NCBI GenBank assembly: GCA_003222675.1
Contig: QHWT01000048.1
Span: forward strand, 1-64,000
Length of the DNA: 64,000 nucleotides
Direction: 5' to 3'
Source of the DNA: Acidobacteriota bacterium
Lineage (GTDB): Bacteria > Acidobacteriota > Vicinamibacteria > Vicinamibacterales > 2-12-FULL-66-21
The notes under the pieces are model-generated. The model was not told the DNA's origin. It did not search any database and saw only the letters and a program-made list of their open reading frames with translations. The translations under genes and the position numbers were made by a program. Of this stretch, positions 31,533 through 61,203 are shown piece after piece (positions within the stretch are counted from its first letter, which is position 1; each line of letters opens with the position of its first letter).

Positions 31533-31761
31533 CAAGCGTCGAGATCGCAGTCGACGAAACACGAACAGATCACGTAGTGTCACGAACGGATTTCCCGCGG
31601 AGAAAACACACCGAGAGCGCCGAGAGCGCATTAGGCGTCACGCCGGCAAGTTCTGCCATCTGCGCATTCAGCCGATGTTGCAGCTTCCGCACAATCCGAG
31701 CCTCCATTAGTCGAAAGCCCCAGTAATTCTTCGCGGCATCGTTTCTGCGATCACGGCGTCA

Positions 31762-32040
31762 ATGCGAACAGCAGACGATCTCAATCGGATCGCGTACGAG
31801 ATCATCGGCGGCGGCATTGCGCTGCATCGCGTGATAGGGCCCGTGTGCTTCGAGAGCATGTACATGCCCTGCCTTGCGTAATAACTCAAGAAGCGCGGCT
31901 TAGATTTTCGGACGAAGATCGCAATCCCGCTCCAGTACGAAGAAGTCTTCATCCCTCGAGCGTACGAAGCGGATTTTATTGTGGAGGACTGCATCGTTGT
32001 CGAACTGAAGGCGGTCGCGACAACAGTGCCACTTGAAGAG
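31762..32040 (+). pseudogene. GxxExxY protein remnant
   Basis: MRTADDLNRIAYEIIGGGIALHRVIGPVCFESMYMPCLA**LKKRGLDF...YEEVFIPRAYEADFIVEDCIVVELKAV, tandem TAA TAA; parallels the intact gene at 42.3 kb. Confidence 0.85.
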
Positions 32041-35000
32041 CGTCAGCTGCAGTCTGTTCACGGAATGCAGCCATCAGGTTACGATGGAGCCGTGCCGTCG
32101 ATCCCGCGGCCGAAGCGTGAAGTCCCCATCGTTCTCACGGCGAGCGCGCTGTTATCGTTCGCCCCGGCGTATCGCGCCGCCGCCCTCGCCTTGCCGGACC
32201 TCGGCTTCGCGGTCTTTTTCATCGTTGCACAGTTGCGAAGCGGCGTCGGCGCCGCAGCTCCGTGGTTCGTCCTCGCGGCTGTTCTCCTCGGCATCGCGAT
32301 TCGCCGGCTCGATCTCGAAAGCTGGGCGCTGTTCGTTCCCGGTGGCCTGACCGGGCGCGTCGACCAGGCGTTCGGAGCACGCGCCGCGACGGCCGCCGCC
32401 TCCGTCGTGATCGTCGAGCGCATCCTGCTGGCGGCGCTGGCCTGTATCGTATTCGGTCAGTACGCTGCGTCACTGCTGTTCGCGCTGACCGGCGTCGGCC
32501 GGCTGCCGCCGATTGGGGCCGCTGCGGATCTCACGTCTGTCTTCGCGATAGTACTGCTTGGCTGGTTGTGGCTGCGCGCGCGCCGGGGCTGGCTCCTTTC
32601 GGTGGCGCGGCGAACACAGCACGTCTGGCTGGCGGTCGGCACGTTGGTGGGCCTCGCGATCTGTGCTGCAATCTCCGCCGGCCGAGCGTGGACGAAGACC
32701 GAACTCGCGCTGCTGCACAATGCTTCGGACCTGACGACCACAGGATGGTGGGCCATCGTCGTGGCCCTCGCGACGTTCGGGCAGGCCTCGCCTGCGATCG
32801 GCGTCGGCGACAGCCTTCCCCGCATCGCGCGCGAGCTCGAGCCACCGCGGAGCGTCGGCCTCAGGCGGACGGCGGCACTCACCGGCGTTTACGGGCTCGC
32901 CGTTACGACGCTGCTGTCCTTTCTTTATGTGGCGCTCGTGCCGGTGACGGCCGATCCCCGATGGATCGATGCACCGCTCATCGCGCTCGCGCAGAATCTC
33001 ACCGCGCCATTGTGGCTCAGAGCCCTGCTCGCGCTGGCCGTCGTCGCGGCGGCCGGGCTGCTGCTCGGGCAAGCGACGCGCGCCGCGCTCTGGGGCGCGG
33101 AGAGCGCGCTGGCGCGATTGGCCGAGCGCGATGTCCTGGCTCTGATCTTCCGCGCGCGCGACCCGAAGTTCGGCAGGTACGCCGCGGCGATCGATACCGT
33201 TGCCGTCGCGGCCGCCGGCGCCATCGTGATGAGCGGCGCGAGCCGTGCGTGGCTCGGGTCCGCCTACGCGCTGTCCGTCGTGGCGACCTTCGTGCTGCAG
33301 ATCTCCGCGCTGCTGCGGCTGCGCCGGCGGCCCGCCGGCGCGCCACTGCGATTACCGCTCAACCTGCGGTTCGCAGGCCGTGAATGGGCGTTCGGCACGT
33401 GGTCCGTCGGCATCCTGCTCGCGCTGTCCGGTCTCGCGATGCTCGCTCGCCACGAGGCCGGCGCCATTGGCGCGGCCGTCGCGATAGCCGCGCTCGCGTT
33501 CGTGCTTGCGACACGGGCGGGCCGCACTGTGGGTTCCGAGCCCGCGGATCTCGATGCCTCGCAGCTTCTCCCCTCCACCGAGCTCTCGTTCGGTCCGCTC
33601 GAGCCCAGGCCGCAGACGATCCTGGTGCCGGTGCGCAATCCCAACTGGCTCGCCCACGTGGATGCAGCCCTCCGGACGTCGCGCGATCACCACGTCGTGA
33701 TCATGATGGCGCGGATCATCGGCATCGATACCGACGACGAATGGACCGACGAGACGCATCCAACCGCGTCGGAACGGCTCGTGTTCTCGCGGGCACTCGC
33801 GCTCGCTGAGCGCTATGGCCGTTCTGTCCGGCTGATGATCATGCCGGCGCGCAACGTCTTCGACGCTCTCGTCGCCGCGGTGCAGCGGCTGCAGGCGTCC
33901 GAGATCTACGTGGGCGAGTCCGCCTCGATTTCGGCCGACGCGCAGGCGCAGCTGCTCGGCCAGGCGTGGGAGCGCGCGCCGCGATCGGACCTCCACGTCC
34001 GCCTCGTCATCCATCACCGCAGCGGCCGCGCCGACGTCTATCACCTCGGCGCGCATGCCCCAGAGCTCAATGCGCGGGATCTCGATCTGATTCATTCGGT
34101 CTGGCTCGACGCCGTCAAGGCGCTCGGCCGCCACGTTCATCATCACGACATCGTTCGAGCGGCGCTGACGCAAATGACTGAACAACTGAGCGGTCCAGAC
34201 CGCGACGGGGCGTTGGAAGCCATCAGGCAGGTGGCCAAACCAGCGGACGAGCTCGCCGCGGCGCTTCGCACGCGCGACTACGCGCGTCTCCGCGACATGA
34301 TGCGGAACCGTCCACCAAGTGACCTCGGAGAACTGCTGGGGGCGCTTCCGCTGGAAGACCAGGCCGTCGTCTTCCGGCTGCTGCCGCGCAAGGATGCGGC
34401 GGCGACGTTCGAGTACCTGCCGCAGGACGCGCGCGAGGCGCTGTTGAAGACATTGTCGAAGGAGGTCGTGGCCTCGATTCTCAACGAGATGGCGCCTGAC
34501 GACCGCACGATGTTTCTCGAGGAGCTGCCGGCGGCGGCCACGCGCGAGCTGCTCTCGCTGCTGACGCCGCAGGAACGCGGGATCGCGCTGACGCTGCTGG
34601 GGTATCCGGAGAGGTCGGTCGGGCGCCTCATGACGCCCGACTATGTCGCGGTGCACGAGGAGTGGACCGTCCAGGAGGTGCTCGACTACATCCGCCGGCA
34701 CGGTCAGGACAGCGAAACGCTCAACGTCATCTACGTCGTCGACGACCACGGCGGGCTGGTCGACGACATCCGCATCAGGGCGGTGCTGCTCGCCGACCCG
34801 GCGCGGCACGTGTCGGAGATCATGGATCGCCGGTTCGTCGCCCTGAAGGCGACCGACGATCAGCAGACGGCGGTGTCGGTGTTCCGCCAGTACGATCGCT
34901 CGGCCCTGCCGGTCACCGACACCGCGGGCATGCTGATCGGCATCGTGACGGTGGACGACATCCTCGACGTGGCGGAAACCGAAGCGACCAAGGACATCCA

Positions 35001-40304: not shown

Positions 40305-41093
40305 ATGTCGGGCCATTTCCAGCTGATTCTGCCGGGCACGGTCGTCGCAATAGGGCGGAACCCCGATATGAGCTGGTTCCAGGTCACGGAGGAGCGGCTG
40401 CGGTACCGCGGCCGGATCACACGCGCGCCCTACGACGCGTGGACGGGAATGCCTGCGGGCGAAGAGGCGATCGCCGAGGCCGCGAAGCAGATCGGCTTCC
40501 GTCTCTTCGGCCGTGCGCGCGCCGCGCGACAGACGATGTGGCGGCAGTTGAAAGACATGGCCGCCTCTCCCGCCGGTGTCGTGGCGCTCGACGCGGCTGC
40601 GGACGTCTACGCGCGGACGCTCAGCGATCTTGCTTACGCGCAGGGATTGCCGCGCGCGCAGGTCGGATTGCGGCGGCTCGTGCTCGTACCGCGTGCGCTC
40701 GCGGCCGGGCGCGCGCGCTCCGCGCTCGCGTCGCGGCTGCAACAGGCTCCGCAGATCGACGAGCTCAACGAGGCACTGCGCGCGTTTCTCTTCGAACGAG
40801 TGGTCATCGAGCTCGATGCGGCGGCGAGGCATGCGCGCCCTACCGTCAAGCGCCCGATCCGCGCGGGCGACTGGACCTGCATCGGCGTGGACACCGAGTT
40901 CGGGTGGGTCGATCAGGTCTGGTCGGGCGCCGGCTGGTCGGGGCACTTCTTCGTCTACGAGTGGCCGCCAGCGCCGATGACACGCGCGGACCGGAAAGCG
41001 GTCGCGAAGGCGGTTACCGATCTTGAATCGGGCATCAACACGCTGTCGCGCGAGCGGCGCCAACAGCTCGTCAACGCCGCGGTTCGCGCATAG
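40305..41093 (+). CDS. Conserved hypothetical protein
   Basis: 262-aa ORF (MSGHFQLILPGTVVAIGRNPDMSWFQ...); preferred over the arginine-rich antisense ORF 40209-41063. Confidence 0.6.
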   Translation: MSGHFQLILPGTVVAIGRNPDMSWFQVTEERLRYRGRITRAPYDAWTGMPAGEEAIAEAAKQIGFRLFGRARAARQTMWRQLKDMAASPAGVVALDAAADVYARTLSDLAYAQGLPRAQVGLRRLVLVPRALAAGRARSALASRLQQAPQIDELNEALRAFLFERVVIELDAAARHARPTVKRPIRAGDWTCIGVDTEFGWVDQVWSGAGWSGHFFVYEWPPAPMTRADRKAVAKAVTDLESGINTLSRERRQQLVNAAVRA

Positions 41094-42137: not shown

Positions 42138-42325
42138 TCTTCACGCTCCGTTCTCTTGGTCCGACAGCTACTCGATCACGATTTTCACGCAGAGGCGCAA
42201 AGGCGCAGAGGCAAATACTTCAACATCTCCCGTCCGAGGTCAGTTGCAATTCCTGCAACATTTGCGACGTGCTTCCGCGTAACCGCTTCTATTATGAGCG
42301 GCATGTCTCCTGCTTTGGGCCGGGC

Positions 42326-42799
42326 ATGGCTACAGAGCAAGAAATCAATCGTATCGCTCACGAGATCGTCGGCGGCGGCATTGCACTCCACAAGGCGTTC
42401 GGCCCGGGATGCTTCGAGTCAACGTACTCTCCTTGTCTTGCGTACGAGATGCGGAAACGTGGGCTCCAGTTTGAGGCGAAGGTCGAACTCGAACTGCACT
42501 ATGAGGAACTCTGGATACCGCGGGCCTACGAGGCCGACTTCATCGTTGAAGGTTCGATCGTGGTTGAGGTGAAAGCCTTACAGGCGATTGCGCCGGTCCA
42601 TCTTCGTCAGGTGAAGACCTACCTAACTCTCACTGGCTGCCCACTCGGACTTCTGATGAATTTCGGAGACGAGACAATGAAGGCCGGAGTACACCGCGTC
42701 GTCAACAACTTTCCCGAGGGCACAAGTCGCGACCTGCCGGCCCGGCGAAGCCGGGCCGTGGGGGAGGAAAAGAAAAATCCAGATCAAAACGCCGGATGA
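42326..42799 (+). CDS. GxxExxY protein (PD-(D/E)XK-like family)
   Basis: INRIAHEIVGGGIALHKAFGPGCFESTYSPCLAYEM...YEADFIVEGSIVVEVKALQAIAPVHLRQVKTYL. Confidence 0.9.
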   Translation: MATEQEINRIAHEIVGGGIALHKAFGPGCFESTYSPCLAYEMRKRGLQFEAKVELELHYEELWIPRAYEADFIVEGSIVVEVKALQAIAPVHLRQVKTYLTLTGCPLGLLMNFGDETMKAGVHRVVNNFPEGTSRDLPARRSRAVGEEKKNPDQNAG

Positions 42800-42867
42800 T
42801 CAAATGGCGCTTTGATCTGGATTTTTCTTTTCCTCTCCCGCCGCTGCGCGGCGCAGGTCGCGACTTC
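42725..42867. repeat. Long near-perfect hairpin at the 3' end of the GxxExxY gene
   Basis: GGAGGAAAAGAAAAATCCAGATCAAAACGCC ... GGCGCTTTGATCTGGATTTTTCTTTTCCTCTCC with outer arms AAGTCGCGACCTGC/GCGCAGGTCGCGACTT. Confidence 0.9.
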
Positions 42868-42914
42868 AGCCCGAGGAAGCCTCTGCGCCTTGGCGCCTCT
42901 GCGTGAGATCCGTG

Positions 42915-47271: not shown

Positions 47272-47420
47272 TCTCGGCTTCAGGCTTCGGCGTCAGGCTC
47301 GAGGGCCTAGGGCTTCACGGGCCTCGCGATCCGCCTCAGGCTTCAGGACCGTCCGGGAGCCTAAAGCCCGGAGCCCGAAGCCCGGAGCCTGAAGCCCGGA
47401 GCCTGAAGCCCGAAGCCTGC
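47272..47420. repeat. Tandem 14-bp AGCCTGAAGCCCGG array with inverted upstream arm
   Basis: ggcttcaggcttcggcgtcaggct ... agcctaaagcccgg agcccgaagcccgg agcctgaagcccgg agcctgaagcccga agcctg. Confidence 0.8.
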
Positions 47421-47477
47421 GACCGCGACGCGCCAGACCAAATCAACTGGCGCGGTGTCCAATCGCTGGAGGGTCCC

Positions 47478-49369: not shown

Positions 49370-49459
49370 GGCCGGGTCTGAAGACCCGGCCTACAGATCG
49401 CCGGCGGGTCTAAAGACCCGCCCTACAGATTTGGGTGTAGGGCGCCTCTTTAGAGGCGC
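49370..49459. repeat. Three consecutive GTAG-tagged REP hairpins
   Basis: GGCCGGGTCTGAAGACCCGGCC; GGCGGGTCTAAAGACCCGCC; GGCGCCTCTTTAGAGGCGC, each beside CTACA/TGTAG. Confidence 0.8.
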
Positions 49460-51960: not shown

Positions 51961-52117
51961 ACGGATCTCACGCCGAGGCGCAAAGGCGCAGAGGACGCGC
52001 GCGGAGAAGACAAGTGAAGATGCGGCTGCTGTGGCGCGGAGCGCATTGCGGCAGCCTTCTCGGCGTCCTCTGCTCCTCTCGAGTTTTCTCTGCGTGAAAT
52101 CGTCTTTTCCACGCGCA
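51961..52117. repeat. Dispersed inverted-arm repeat unit (copy C)
   Basis: L arm acggatctcacgccgaggcgcaaaggcgcagag...ggagaagacaagtgaagatgcggctg; R arm gcagccttctcggcgtcctctgctcctctcgagttttctctgcgtgaaatcgtcttttccacgcg. Confidence 0.75.
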
Positions 52118-54412: not shown

Positions 54413-54701
54413 CCGGATCTCACGCCGAGGCGCCACGGCGCAGAGCATGCGCGTGGAGAAGACAAGTGAAGATGCGGCTGGTGTGGCGCTCCGTCGCAGC
54501 CGGCCTACGGCCGGCGTCTCGAGGTCAGGCGATCGCCAGATACAAGCAGCCAATCCTGGCACCCGCCGCTTGTATCTGCGATTGGCGTGACCTCCAGCCC
54601 GCGCGAAAGCGCGGGTGCGACGGAGCGCACTCCGCAGCCTCCTCGTTGATCTGAGCGCCTCTTGCCCTTCTCCGCGTGAGATCGTCTTCTCCACGCGCGT
54701 T
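54413..54701. repeat. Dispersed inverted-arm repeat unit (copy D) with nested cruciform core
   Basis: Same L and R arms as copy C; core with gcgctccgtcgca/tgcgacggagcgc and gaggtcaggcgatcgccagatacaagc/gcttgtatctgcgattggcgtgacctc. Confidence 0.75.
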
Positions 54702-59575: not shown

Positions 59576-59792
59576 CGGGGAGAAGACGGCCTCACGCAGA
59601 GAAAATGCCAGAGGAGCAGAGGTCGCCGAGGAGGCTGCGACCCGGCGCATCGCCAGGCCGGCCTCCGGCCGGCGCTGTGTGTCTCAGCCCGCGCGAAGCG
59701 CGGGCCTGGCGATGCGCCACACCGCAGCCGCTTCTTCAATTGTCTTCTCCCCGGGCTCCGCGCCTTGGCGCCTTCGCGTGAGACCGTACGTG
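59576..59792. repeat. Dispersed inverted-arm repeat unit (copy E, opposite orientation)
   Basis: R arm ggggagaagacggcctcacgcagagaaaatgccagaggagcagagg; L arm reversed (gcgccttggcgccttcgcgtgagaccg); core ggcgcatcgccaggcc/ggcctggcgatgcgcc. Confidence 0.75.
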
Positions 59793-60475: not shown

Positions 60476-61203
60476 TCAGATGTAGGCCGGGTCTTCAGAC
60501 CCGGCGCTTCCTGCCCGTAGTACGCGTCGGGCCCGTGCTTGCGCAGGTAATGCTTATCGACGAGGAACGAATCCGGGCGAGCGGCCTCGGCCGCGAGCGC
60601 GCGCACGCGCCATTCGACGCGCGCGAGATATTCCAGGACCTGCGCGTGCTCGATCGCGGACGCCGCGTCCTTGCCCCAGGTGAAAGGGCCATGATTCGCG
60701 ACCAGCACGGCGGCCATCTCATCGCACGAGAGTCCCTCGCGACGGAGCGCTTCGATGATGACAAGGCCGGTGTTCTTCTCGTAGTCGCGCTGCACTTCTT
60801 CCTGTGTCAGCGGCCGCGTGACCGGCACGTCCCCGCGAAAGTAATCCGCGTGCGTCGTTCCCATGCAGCGGACGGGCACGCGTGCCTGTGCGAACACCGT
60901 CGCGTACTCCGAGTGCGTGTGCACGATGCCGCCGCAGCCAAAGCCCCGGTACAGCTCGAGGTGCGTGGGCGTATCCGACGAGGGGCGCAGATCGCTGTCC
61001 ACGACCTTCCCCGTCTCCAGCGAGACCGGCACCATGTGTGACGGCGACAGCGCGCTGTACGGAATGCCGCTCGGCTTGATGACAAAAACCCCGGCCGCGC
61101 GATCGAGCTGCGACACGTTGCCGAAGGTCCCCATGACGAGTCCGGTTTTCGCGAGCGCGCGATTCGCCTGATACACGATCTCGCGTAACTCGGCGGCGAT
61201 CAC
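60472..61203 (-). CDS. araD: L-ribulose-5-phosphate 4-epimerase
   Basis: TFGNVSQLD, HTHSEYATVFAQA, NHGPFTWGKDA; overlaps araB by 4 bp. Confidence 0.93.
   Translation of the reverse strand: MIAAELREIVYQANRALAKTGLVMGTFGNVSQLDRAAGVFVIKPSGIPYSALSPSHMVPVSLETGKVVDSDLRPSSDTPTHLELYRGFGCGGIVHTHSEYATVFAQARVPVRCMGTTHADYFRGDVPVTRPLTQEEVQRDYEKNTGLVIIEALRREGLSCDEMAAVLVANHGPFTWGKDAASAIEHAQVLEYLARVEWRVRALAAEAARPDSFLVDKHYLRKHGPDAYYGQEAPGLKTRPTSE

Follow-up and report, generated by a model that had tools for sequence, protein, structure and literature searches.

A single small gene enclosed by inverted repeats in acidobacterial DNA raises the question of whether so little sequence can constitute a mobile element and, if so, what moves it. 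The locus lies in a 64,000-nt stretch, hereafter the window (positions 1 to 64,000 of contig QHWT01000048.1, assembly GCA_003222675.1, Acidobacteriota bacterium), and its gene belongs to the GxxExxY family. An original prediction, made from the letters of the window, had taken it for an autonomous element with 28-bp terminal repeats and gene-less derivatives resembling miniature inverted-repeat transposable elements (MITEs). Comparisons of sequences establish the architecture, its tie to GxxExxY genes in about 20 phyla, the movement of whole units in relatives, gene-less derivatives and a conserved active site. We consider it reasonably probable that the locus is a compact mobile unit, in which one nuclease gene stands between inverted arrays serving as its ends and the nuclease itself would drive the movement.

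The window unit and its array-type ends

The inverted repeats proposed to frame the gene and a hairpin were recovered with one mismatch (27/28 bp, 42185-42212 vs. 42879-42906), and the pairing lengthens to 36 bp at 89% identity (42177-42212/42879-42914). The features of the unit are as follows.

42177-42914, + strand: whole array-ended unit of 738 bp (left arm, GxxExxY gene, hairpin cluster, right arm), delimited by the inverted repeats; comparable units elsewhere stop at the outer arm edges
42185-42212, + strand: left arm, TCACGCAGAGG CGCAAAGG CGCAGAGG C, made of 8-nt units of the CRCNRAG type that read inward, positive in the inward array test
42326-42799, + strand: GxxExxY (TIGR04256/PF13366) nuclease gene, with a profile match at 42353-42703
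42730-42858, strand not applicable: cloverleaf of palindromes found by folding (outer stem, GC hairpin, long AT-rich hairpin, GC hairpin)
42879-42906, - strand: right arm, the left arm inverted with one mismatch

The window arm consists of an 8-nt unit repeated three times (CGCAGAGG CGCAAAGG CGCAGAGG). Between the repeats lies a single complete, intact gene, in an open reading frame (ORF) of 42269-42799 that is open from a GTG at 42269 and has an ATG at 42326; its final ~30 codons overlap the hairpin cluster. Folded as DNA, the hairpin region (42730-42870) gives -61.9 kcal/mol with z = -12.

The encoded protein scores 118.6 bits with TIGR04256 (cut-off 35) and 118 bits with PF13366 (cut-off 22). 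It carries GPGCFESTY, D, E-x-K, QxxxY and NF, and the catalytic residues of the family (E, D, ExK, QxxxY and others) are invariant or nearly so among 60 and 52 aligned members. An AlphaFold2 model (pLDDT 86, pTM 0.79) found its nearest solved folds in Cas4 SSO0001 and phage or lambda-type exonucleases (4ic1, 3syy, 6m9k; Foldseek E 0.005-0.04, probability 0.75-0.99), and by its predicted fold the protein is a Cas4/lambda-exonuclease-like PD-(D/E)XK nuclease. No sequence relatives of it were found in the PDB.

The notion of a fixed 28-bp terminal repeat had to be given up. The general ends are inverted arrays whose unit (about CRCNRAG plus 1-3 nt) is 8-10 nt long and reads inward; their sequence differs from locus to locus around this degenerate unit, and no terminal repeat is fixed among copies. 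As a universal terminus the exact 25-mer core was rejected, since it accompanies only one of the five GxxExxY matches of this genome and is nearly absent in 40 relatives. None of the other four matches has the window 28-mer; three (contigs C9, C60 and C135) are flanked by inverted repeats of their own kind, and the fourth has none. This last is a decayed copy ~10.5 kb from the main unit (window 31741-32055, + strand; 56% protein identity, two in-frame TAA, no arrays). The proposed search of GxxExxY loci for the flanking repeat thus failed in its literal form, as the exact 25-mer finds only the window lineage because array sequence varies by locus, and succeeded in a wider one, as other loci have inverted arrays of their own.

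Inverted repeats were scored as the best pairing between 600-bp flanks, and both the threshold of 15 and the CRCNRAG motif were picked after examples had been seen. Scores of at least 15 were obtained at 48 of 58 GxxExxY loci from other genomes taken to be acidobacterial, a set in which one genus is over-represented, vs. 8 of 321 sham ORFs (mechanical calls) from the same stretches. For named genomes of about 20 phyla, where the 80 loci were the best matches to one alignment, the figures were 54/77 vs. 6/162, and with both sets together inverted repeats frame the gene at 102 of 135 loci. The gene had inward CRCNRAG arrays to its left and right at 34/57 acidobacterial loci vs. 2/328 shams (Fisher 5e-31) and at 47/74 named-genome loci vs. 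3/173 shams (Fisher 1e-27).

Genes of the four-helix-bundle family PF05635 (S23/IVP), which resembles the diversity-generating retroelement (DGR) protein Avd (PMC10053308), offer a parallel. All eight such genes of the window genome (L037-L044) lie between inverted 7-nt arrays, each locus different. The layout recurs at the phylum loci L195-L224, and 27 of 29 sampled loci score at least 15, with inverted heptamer arrays of locus-specific sequence. The array unit is mostly 7 nt at PF05635 loci and 8-10 nt at GxxExxY loci. Pooled, inward CRCNRAG arrays mark 81/131 GxxExxY loci, 5/501 shams and 0/29 four-helix-bundle loci; the type of array is therefore tied to the protein family. A solo array of 7/14-nt units (CCCGGAGCCTGAAG...) is also present in the window at 47353-47422, intergenic and with no gene partner close by.

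Between orthologous units the arms are about 90% identical and their genes about 78%, which argues that the arms are functional. Continuous homogenisation of the two arms was unsupported, as arm-specific differences are inherited (L312/L316).

Whole-unit movement and gene-less derivatives

When 69 units, each with 1 kb of flank, were compared all against all, L117 was found to match L116 and L122 at 82% identity exactly from array to array, with unrelated flanks (bounds 1003-1499 of a unit at 1001-1498, and 1000-1474 of one at 1001-1470). In one related genus, where units have come to stand between essential genes, L117 lies between rpoB and rpoC, and L116 and L122 between ftsA and ftsZ; a further unit, L127, separates thiolase and 3-hydroxyacyl-CoA dehydrogenase genes (fadA|fadB). 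All three junctions are uninterrupted in sister species (many of 47 genomes of the genus), and the empty rpoB-rpoC gap is ~40 bp long and has no array. The suggested comparison of orthologous loci thus yielded the expected presence and absence; of the expected target-site duplication, none could be made out when rpoB|rpoC was set beside 17 empty sister sites, where the short intergenic flanks have diverged. No transposase was seen, and no second gene recurs in the units. Between co-oriented neighbours, 71 of 109 units are in the sense direction vs. a baseline of 223/519. The window unit is an exception, being antisense to both its neighbours, a beta-propeller gene and an MFS gene.

Reduced forms accompany the intact units. 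At ftsA|ftsZ, genome G175 has a relic with array ends but no gene, alongside an intact unit at rpoB|rpoC; relics also occur at fadA|fadB in G217, the GxxExxY gene of G271 is internally deleted, and in G017 gene-less units with GxxExxY-type arms flank a GxxExxY gene on both sides. The window genome has several gene-less pairs, counted solely among pattern matches. The 25-mer core with up to three mismatches (<=3) gave 4 matches in the window vs. none in 100 shuffles, and 26 in the 7.16-Mb genome vs. 0 for the reversed control pattern. As the original prediction had it, the end sequence recurs without the gene at three places in the window (51.97, 54.42 and 59.76-59.78 kb). Two of these relatives can be recognised as inverted pairs enclosing cloverleaf-like structures; in the third the right arm is decayed.

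51967-52100, strand not applicable: gene-less relative found by end-sequence recurrence, left arm CTCACGCCGAGGCGCAAAGGCGCAGAGG, decayed right arm CTCTGCGTGAAAT at about 52088-52100
54419-54680, strand not applicable: gene-less relative found likewise, CTCACGCCGAGG... to ...CTCCGCGTGAG, with a cloverleaf within
59591-59782, strand not applicable: gene-less relative found likewise, CTCACGCAGAG... to ...GCGCCTTGGCGCCTTCGCGTGAG, with palindromes within

For the family as a whole, these comparisons support mobility together with MITE-like derivatives. Of the predicted autonomous element, the gene-less relatives with like ends are borne out, and its autonomy is putative.

The cloverleaf (outer stem, GC hairpin, long hairpin, GC hairpin) occurs with differing sequences in gene-bearing and gene-less units alike (window 42730-42858, 54419-54680 and 59591-59782; units L002 and L003 on contigs C18 and C126), and could be an element nested inside another. 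A perfectly inverted 25-bp pair, GCCGGGTCTGAAGACCCGGCCTACA and its complement, itself palindromic, lies 11 kb apart in the window (49371-49395 and 60481-60505) and probably represents another dispersed palindrome family. Units L123 (G196) and L151 (G203) share a genomic site with flanks 87% identical, while their interiors differ (about 500 vs. 1200 bp; gene 74% identical); this is possibly a replacement or nesting of units. Genome G139 contains an IS5-like element with a GxxExxY unit as passenger, in dozens of mostly internally deleted copies (L165-L194, L375-L378). In a few of the insertion sequence (IS) copies all that is left of the passenger is a portion of the right array. Such passenger-free copies were rejected as true empty sites, since they keep that portion and resemble deletions between GATCCT repeats.

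Candidate agents of movement

What moves the unit is most likely the nuclease acting on its own array ends in stem-loop form, in a manner that would resemble REPIN/RAYT systems. Unaided or together with a host factor, the nuclease would recognise the arrays, which would probably pair into a stem-loop while the DNA is single-stranded in replication, and would cut at the stem base; the unit would then be inserted at another site with no duplication of the target. Hairpin units that have array ends but no gene would be mobilised in trans, as has been proposed for REPINs and RAYTs, and sense insertion between co-transcribed genes would permit expression from host promoters.

Several points weigh against this proposal. 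Enzymes of the PD-(D/E)XK kind in question are usually end-processing exonucleases, and we know of no transposition carried out by a lone one; the window gene encodes such a protein and none of the known transposase folds (DDE, HUH, serine or tyrosine recombinase). Four-helix-bundle genes, which encode no nuclease, show a matching layout, and a common trans-acting machinery could move both kinds of unit. No arms were detectable at 10/58 and 23/77 GxxExxY loci (score below 15), although these genes may be decayed or domesticated copies. Most copies in G139 were spread by the IS5-like element with the units as passengers, so hitch-hiking can account for some of the copies, and the sense-strand bias may reflect only selection for expression. 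As for the window copy, one genome of the same genus (G001) and a related one (G003) have the MFS gene beside a homologue of the ORF at 40305-41093 and lack both the propeller gene and the unit. These relatives are consistent with insertion, but the empty site is imprecise. The predicted mobile unit therefore holds for relatives, in which the gene and both ends move as a whole (rpoBC, ftsAZ, fadAB; one unit at two sites), and less exactly for the window copy.

The main alternative, which we judge unlikely though worth weighing, is that the arrays are moved by an enzyme whose gene lies elsewhere, or by some host process that acts on palindromes, with GxxExxY carried along as cargo (a nuclease of defence or repair, for instance) and with the four-helix-bundle heptamer units sharing the machinery. 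In its favour, two unrelated protein families have a common layout, gene-less units are plentiful, and a lone PD-(D/E)XK enzyme is no known transposase. Yet the array motif is specific to GxxExxY loci (81/131 vs. 0/29 four-helix-bundle loci) and conserved over about 20 phyla, and therefore indicates recognition by the encoded protein. The units also share no recurrent second gene, and the window protein has no PADLOC or PHROG match.

Spread at the RNA level, comparable to that of 23S rRNA intervening sequences (IVSs), is improbable. Here RNase III would cut the RNA stem of the arms, insertion into operons or rRNA would do little harm, and the units would spread via RNA or reverse transcription. 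The IVSs do end in stems, contain an S23p ORF and carry heptamer repeats (PMC4990558), PF05635 has its likeness to Avd of DGRs (PMC10053308), and units in operons lie in the sense direction above baseline. However, arm mismatches that keep G-U in the sense RNA number 125 vs. 121 of the A-C type, so that there is no G-U excess and therefore no sign of RNA-stem selection. The window unit, antisense to both neighbours, and the existence of gene-less units also speak against this model, and motifs of 23S rRNA are absent from the flanks of the sampled loci. For this reason, and with the window unit lying between beta-propeller and MFS genes, a position of GxxExxY inside 23S rRNA was likewise rejected.

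Still less credit is due to a homing-like process, in which the nuclease would cut gene-less alleles or palindromic arrays and its gene would be copied in by break repair. Homing enzymes with the PD-(D/E)XK fold are known, and gene-less palindromic array pairs are possible targets, but the empty rpoB-rpoC, ftsA-ftsZ and fadA-fadB junctions have no array pair; therefore, at least those insertions entered array-free sites. Finally, that the repeats are terminator-like or regulatory features round a resident, non-mobile gene is hardly credible, for despite the strong hairpin near the gene end and the commonness of short intergenic arrays in such genomes, it is contradicted by whole-unit presence and absence, one unit at two sites and the empty sites, and such arms are nearly absent at sham genes.

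Tentatively, and with confidence somewhat short of even, we extend the proposal of a nuclease acting on its own ends to the family: GxxExxY units may be self-mobilising minimal elements of bacteria and archaea, in which one Cas4-like enzyme recognises 8-10-nt inverted arrays and also mobilises, in trans, hairpin units that lack the gene, with Avd-like S23/IVP proteins and heptamer arrays as a parallel system. If true, the two systems would explain many short tandem arrays so far unaccounted for in the intergenic DNA of prokaryotes. Through its cognate arrays and the movement of its units, GxxExxY, a common annotation in bacteria and archaea without an assigned function, ceases to be an uninformative label: it can be tested as a mobile element for which both substrate (the arrays) and enzyme (the Cas4-like nuclease) are defined. 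The S23/IVP parallel bears on the nature of 23S rRNA intervening sequences and on the abundance of 7-nt intergenic arrays. For annotators, such arrays mark insertions, even at rpoB/rpoC or ftsA/ftsZ.

Comparison with known systems

Array-ended GxxExxY units look like compact mobile DNA that is undescribed as far as we found. In the literature searched, no paper linked GxxExxY to arrays or mobility, those naming GxxExxY described no function for it, and no relevant paper contained the array sequence.

Tandem arrays of 7 nt are the most abundant prokaryotic intergenic tandem repeats, for which a 2018 survey had "no clear clue" (PMC6344855), and Xanthomonas has heptamer arrays as 70-75 inverted pairs (PMC4692102). 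These arrays resemble ours in their short, odd-length tandem units, often in inverted pairs; they were reported without function, whereas here heptamers are arms of four-helix-bundle units and 8-10-mers arms of GxxExxY units. With PD-(D/E)XK nucleases of the Cas4, lambda-exonuclease and RecB type (4ic1, 3syy, 6m9k) the GxxExxY protein shares its predicted fold, D...ExK and QxxxY. It is, however, much smaller, has no PDB sequence match, and is encoded within array-ended units, not in a CRISPR or recombination operon.

Insertion sequences with MITEs are alike in having terminal inverted repeats, one gene and internally deleted gene-less derivatives, but GxxExxY units have no known transposase family, recognisable target-site duplication or fixed end sequence. 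The 23S rRNA IVSs, with one small four-helix-bundle ORF (S23p/IVP) and terminal inverted repeats of about 28 bp, are similar in build; that of Coxiella has heptamer repeats, and IVS mobility has been suspected since 1993 (PMC4990558). They lie in rRNA helices, are excised by RNase III, encode an unrelated protein and have a 7-nt rather than an 8-10-nt unit; the GxxExxY loci sampled showed no 23S rRNA motifs.

In function, GxxExxY units would be most like REPIN/RAYT systems, in which REP doublets forming hairpins are associated with a Y1 HUH transposase (PMC3116915). Both have inverted short repeats round a single small nuclease or transposase gene, dispersed gene-less inverted pairs that fold as hairpins, a repeat type linked to the enzyme family, and no classical transposase. 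The two differ in the fold of the enzyme (PD-(D/E)XK vs. HUH/Y1) and in the repeats, which for GxxExxY are 8-10-nt tandem arrays (CRCNRAG) and not REP palindromes or GTAG-type REPs. Moreover, the gene-bearing GxxExxY unit is mobile and may be present in several copies, whereas published RAYTs are said to be single-copy genes incapable of moving themselves.
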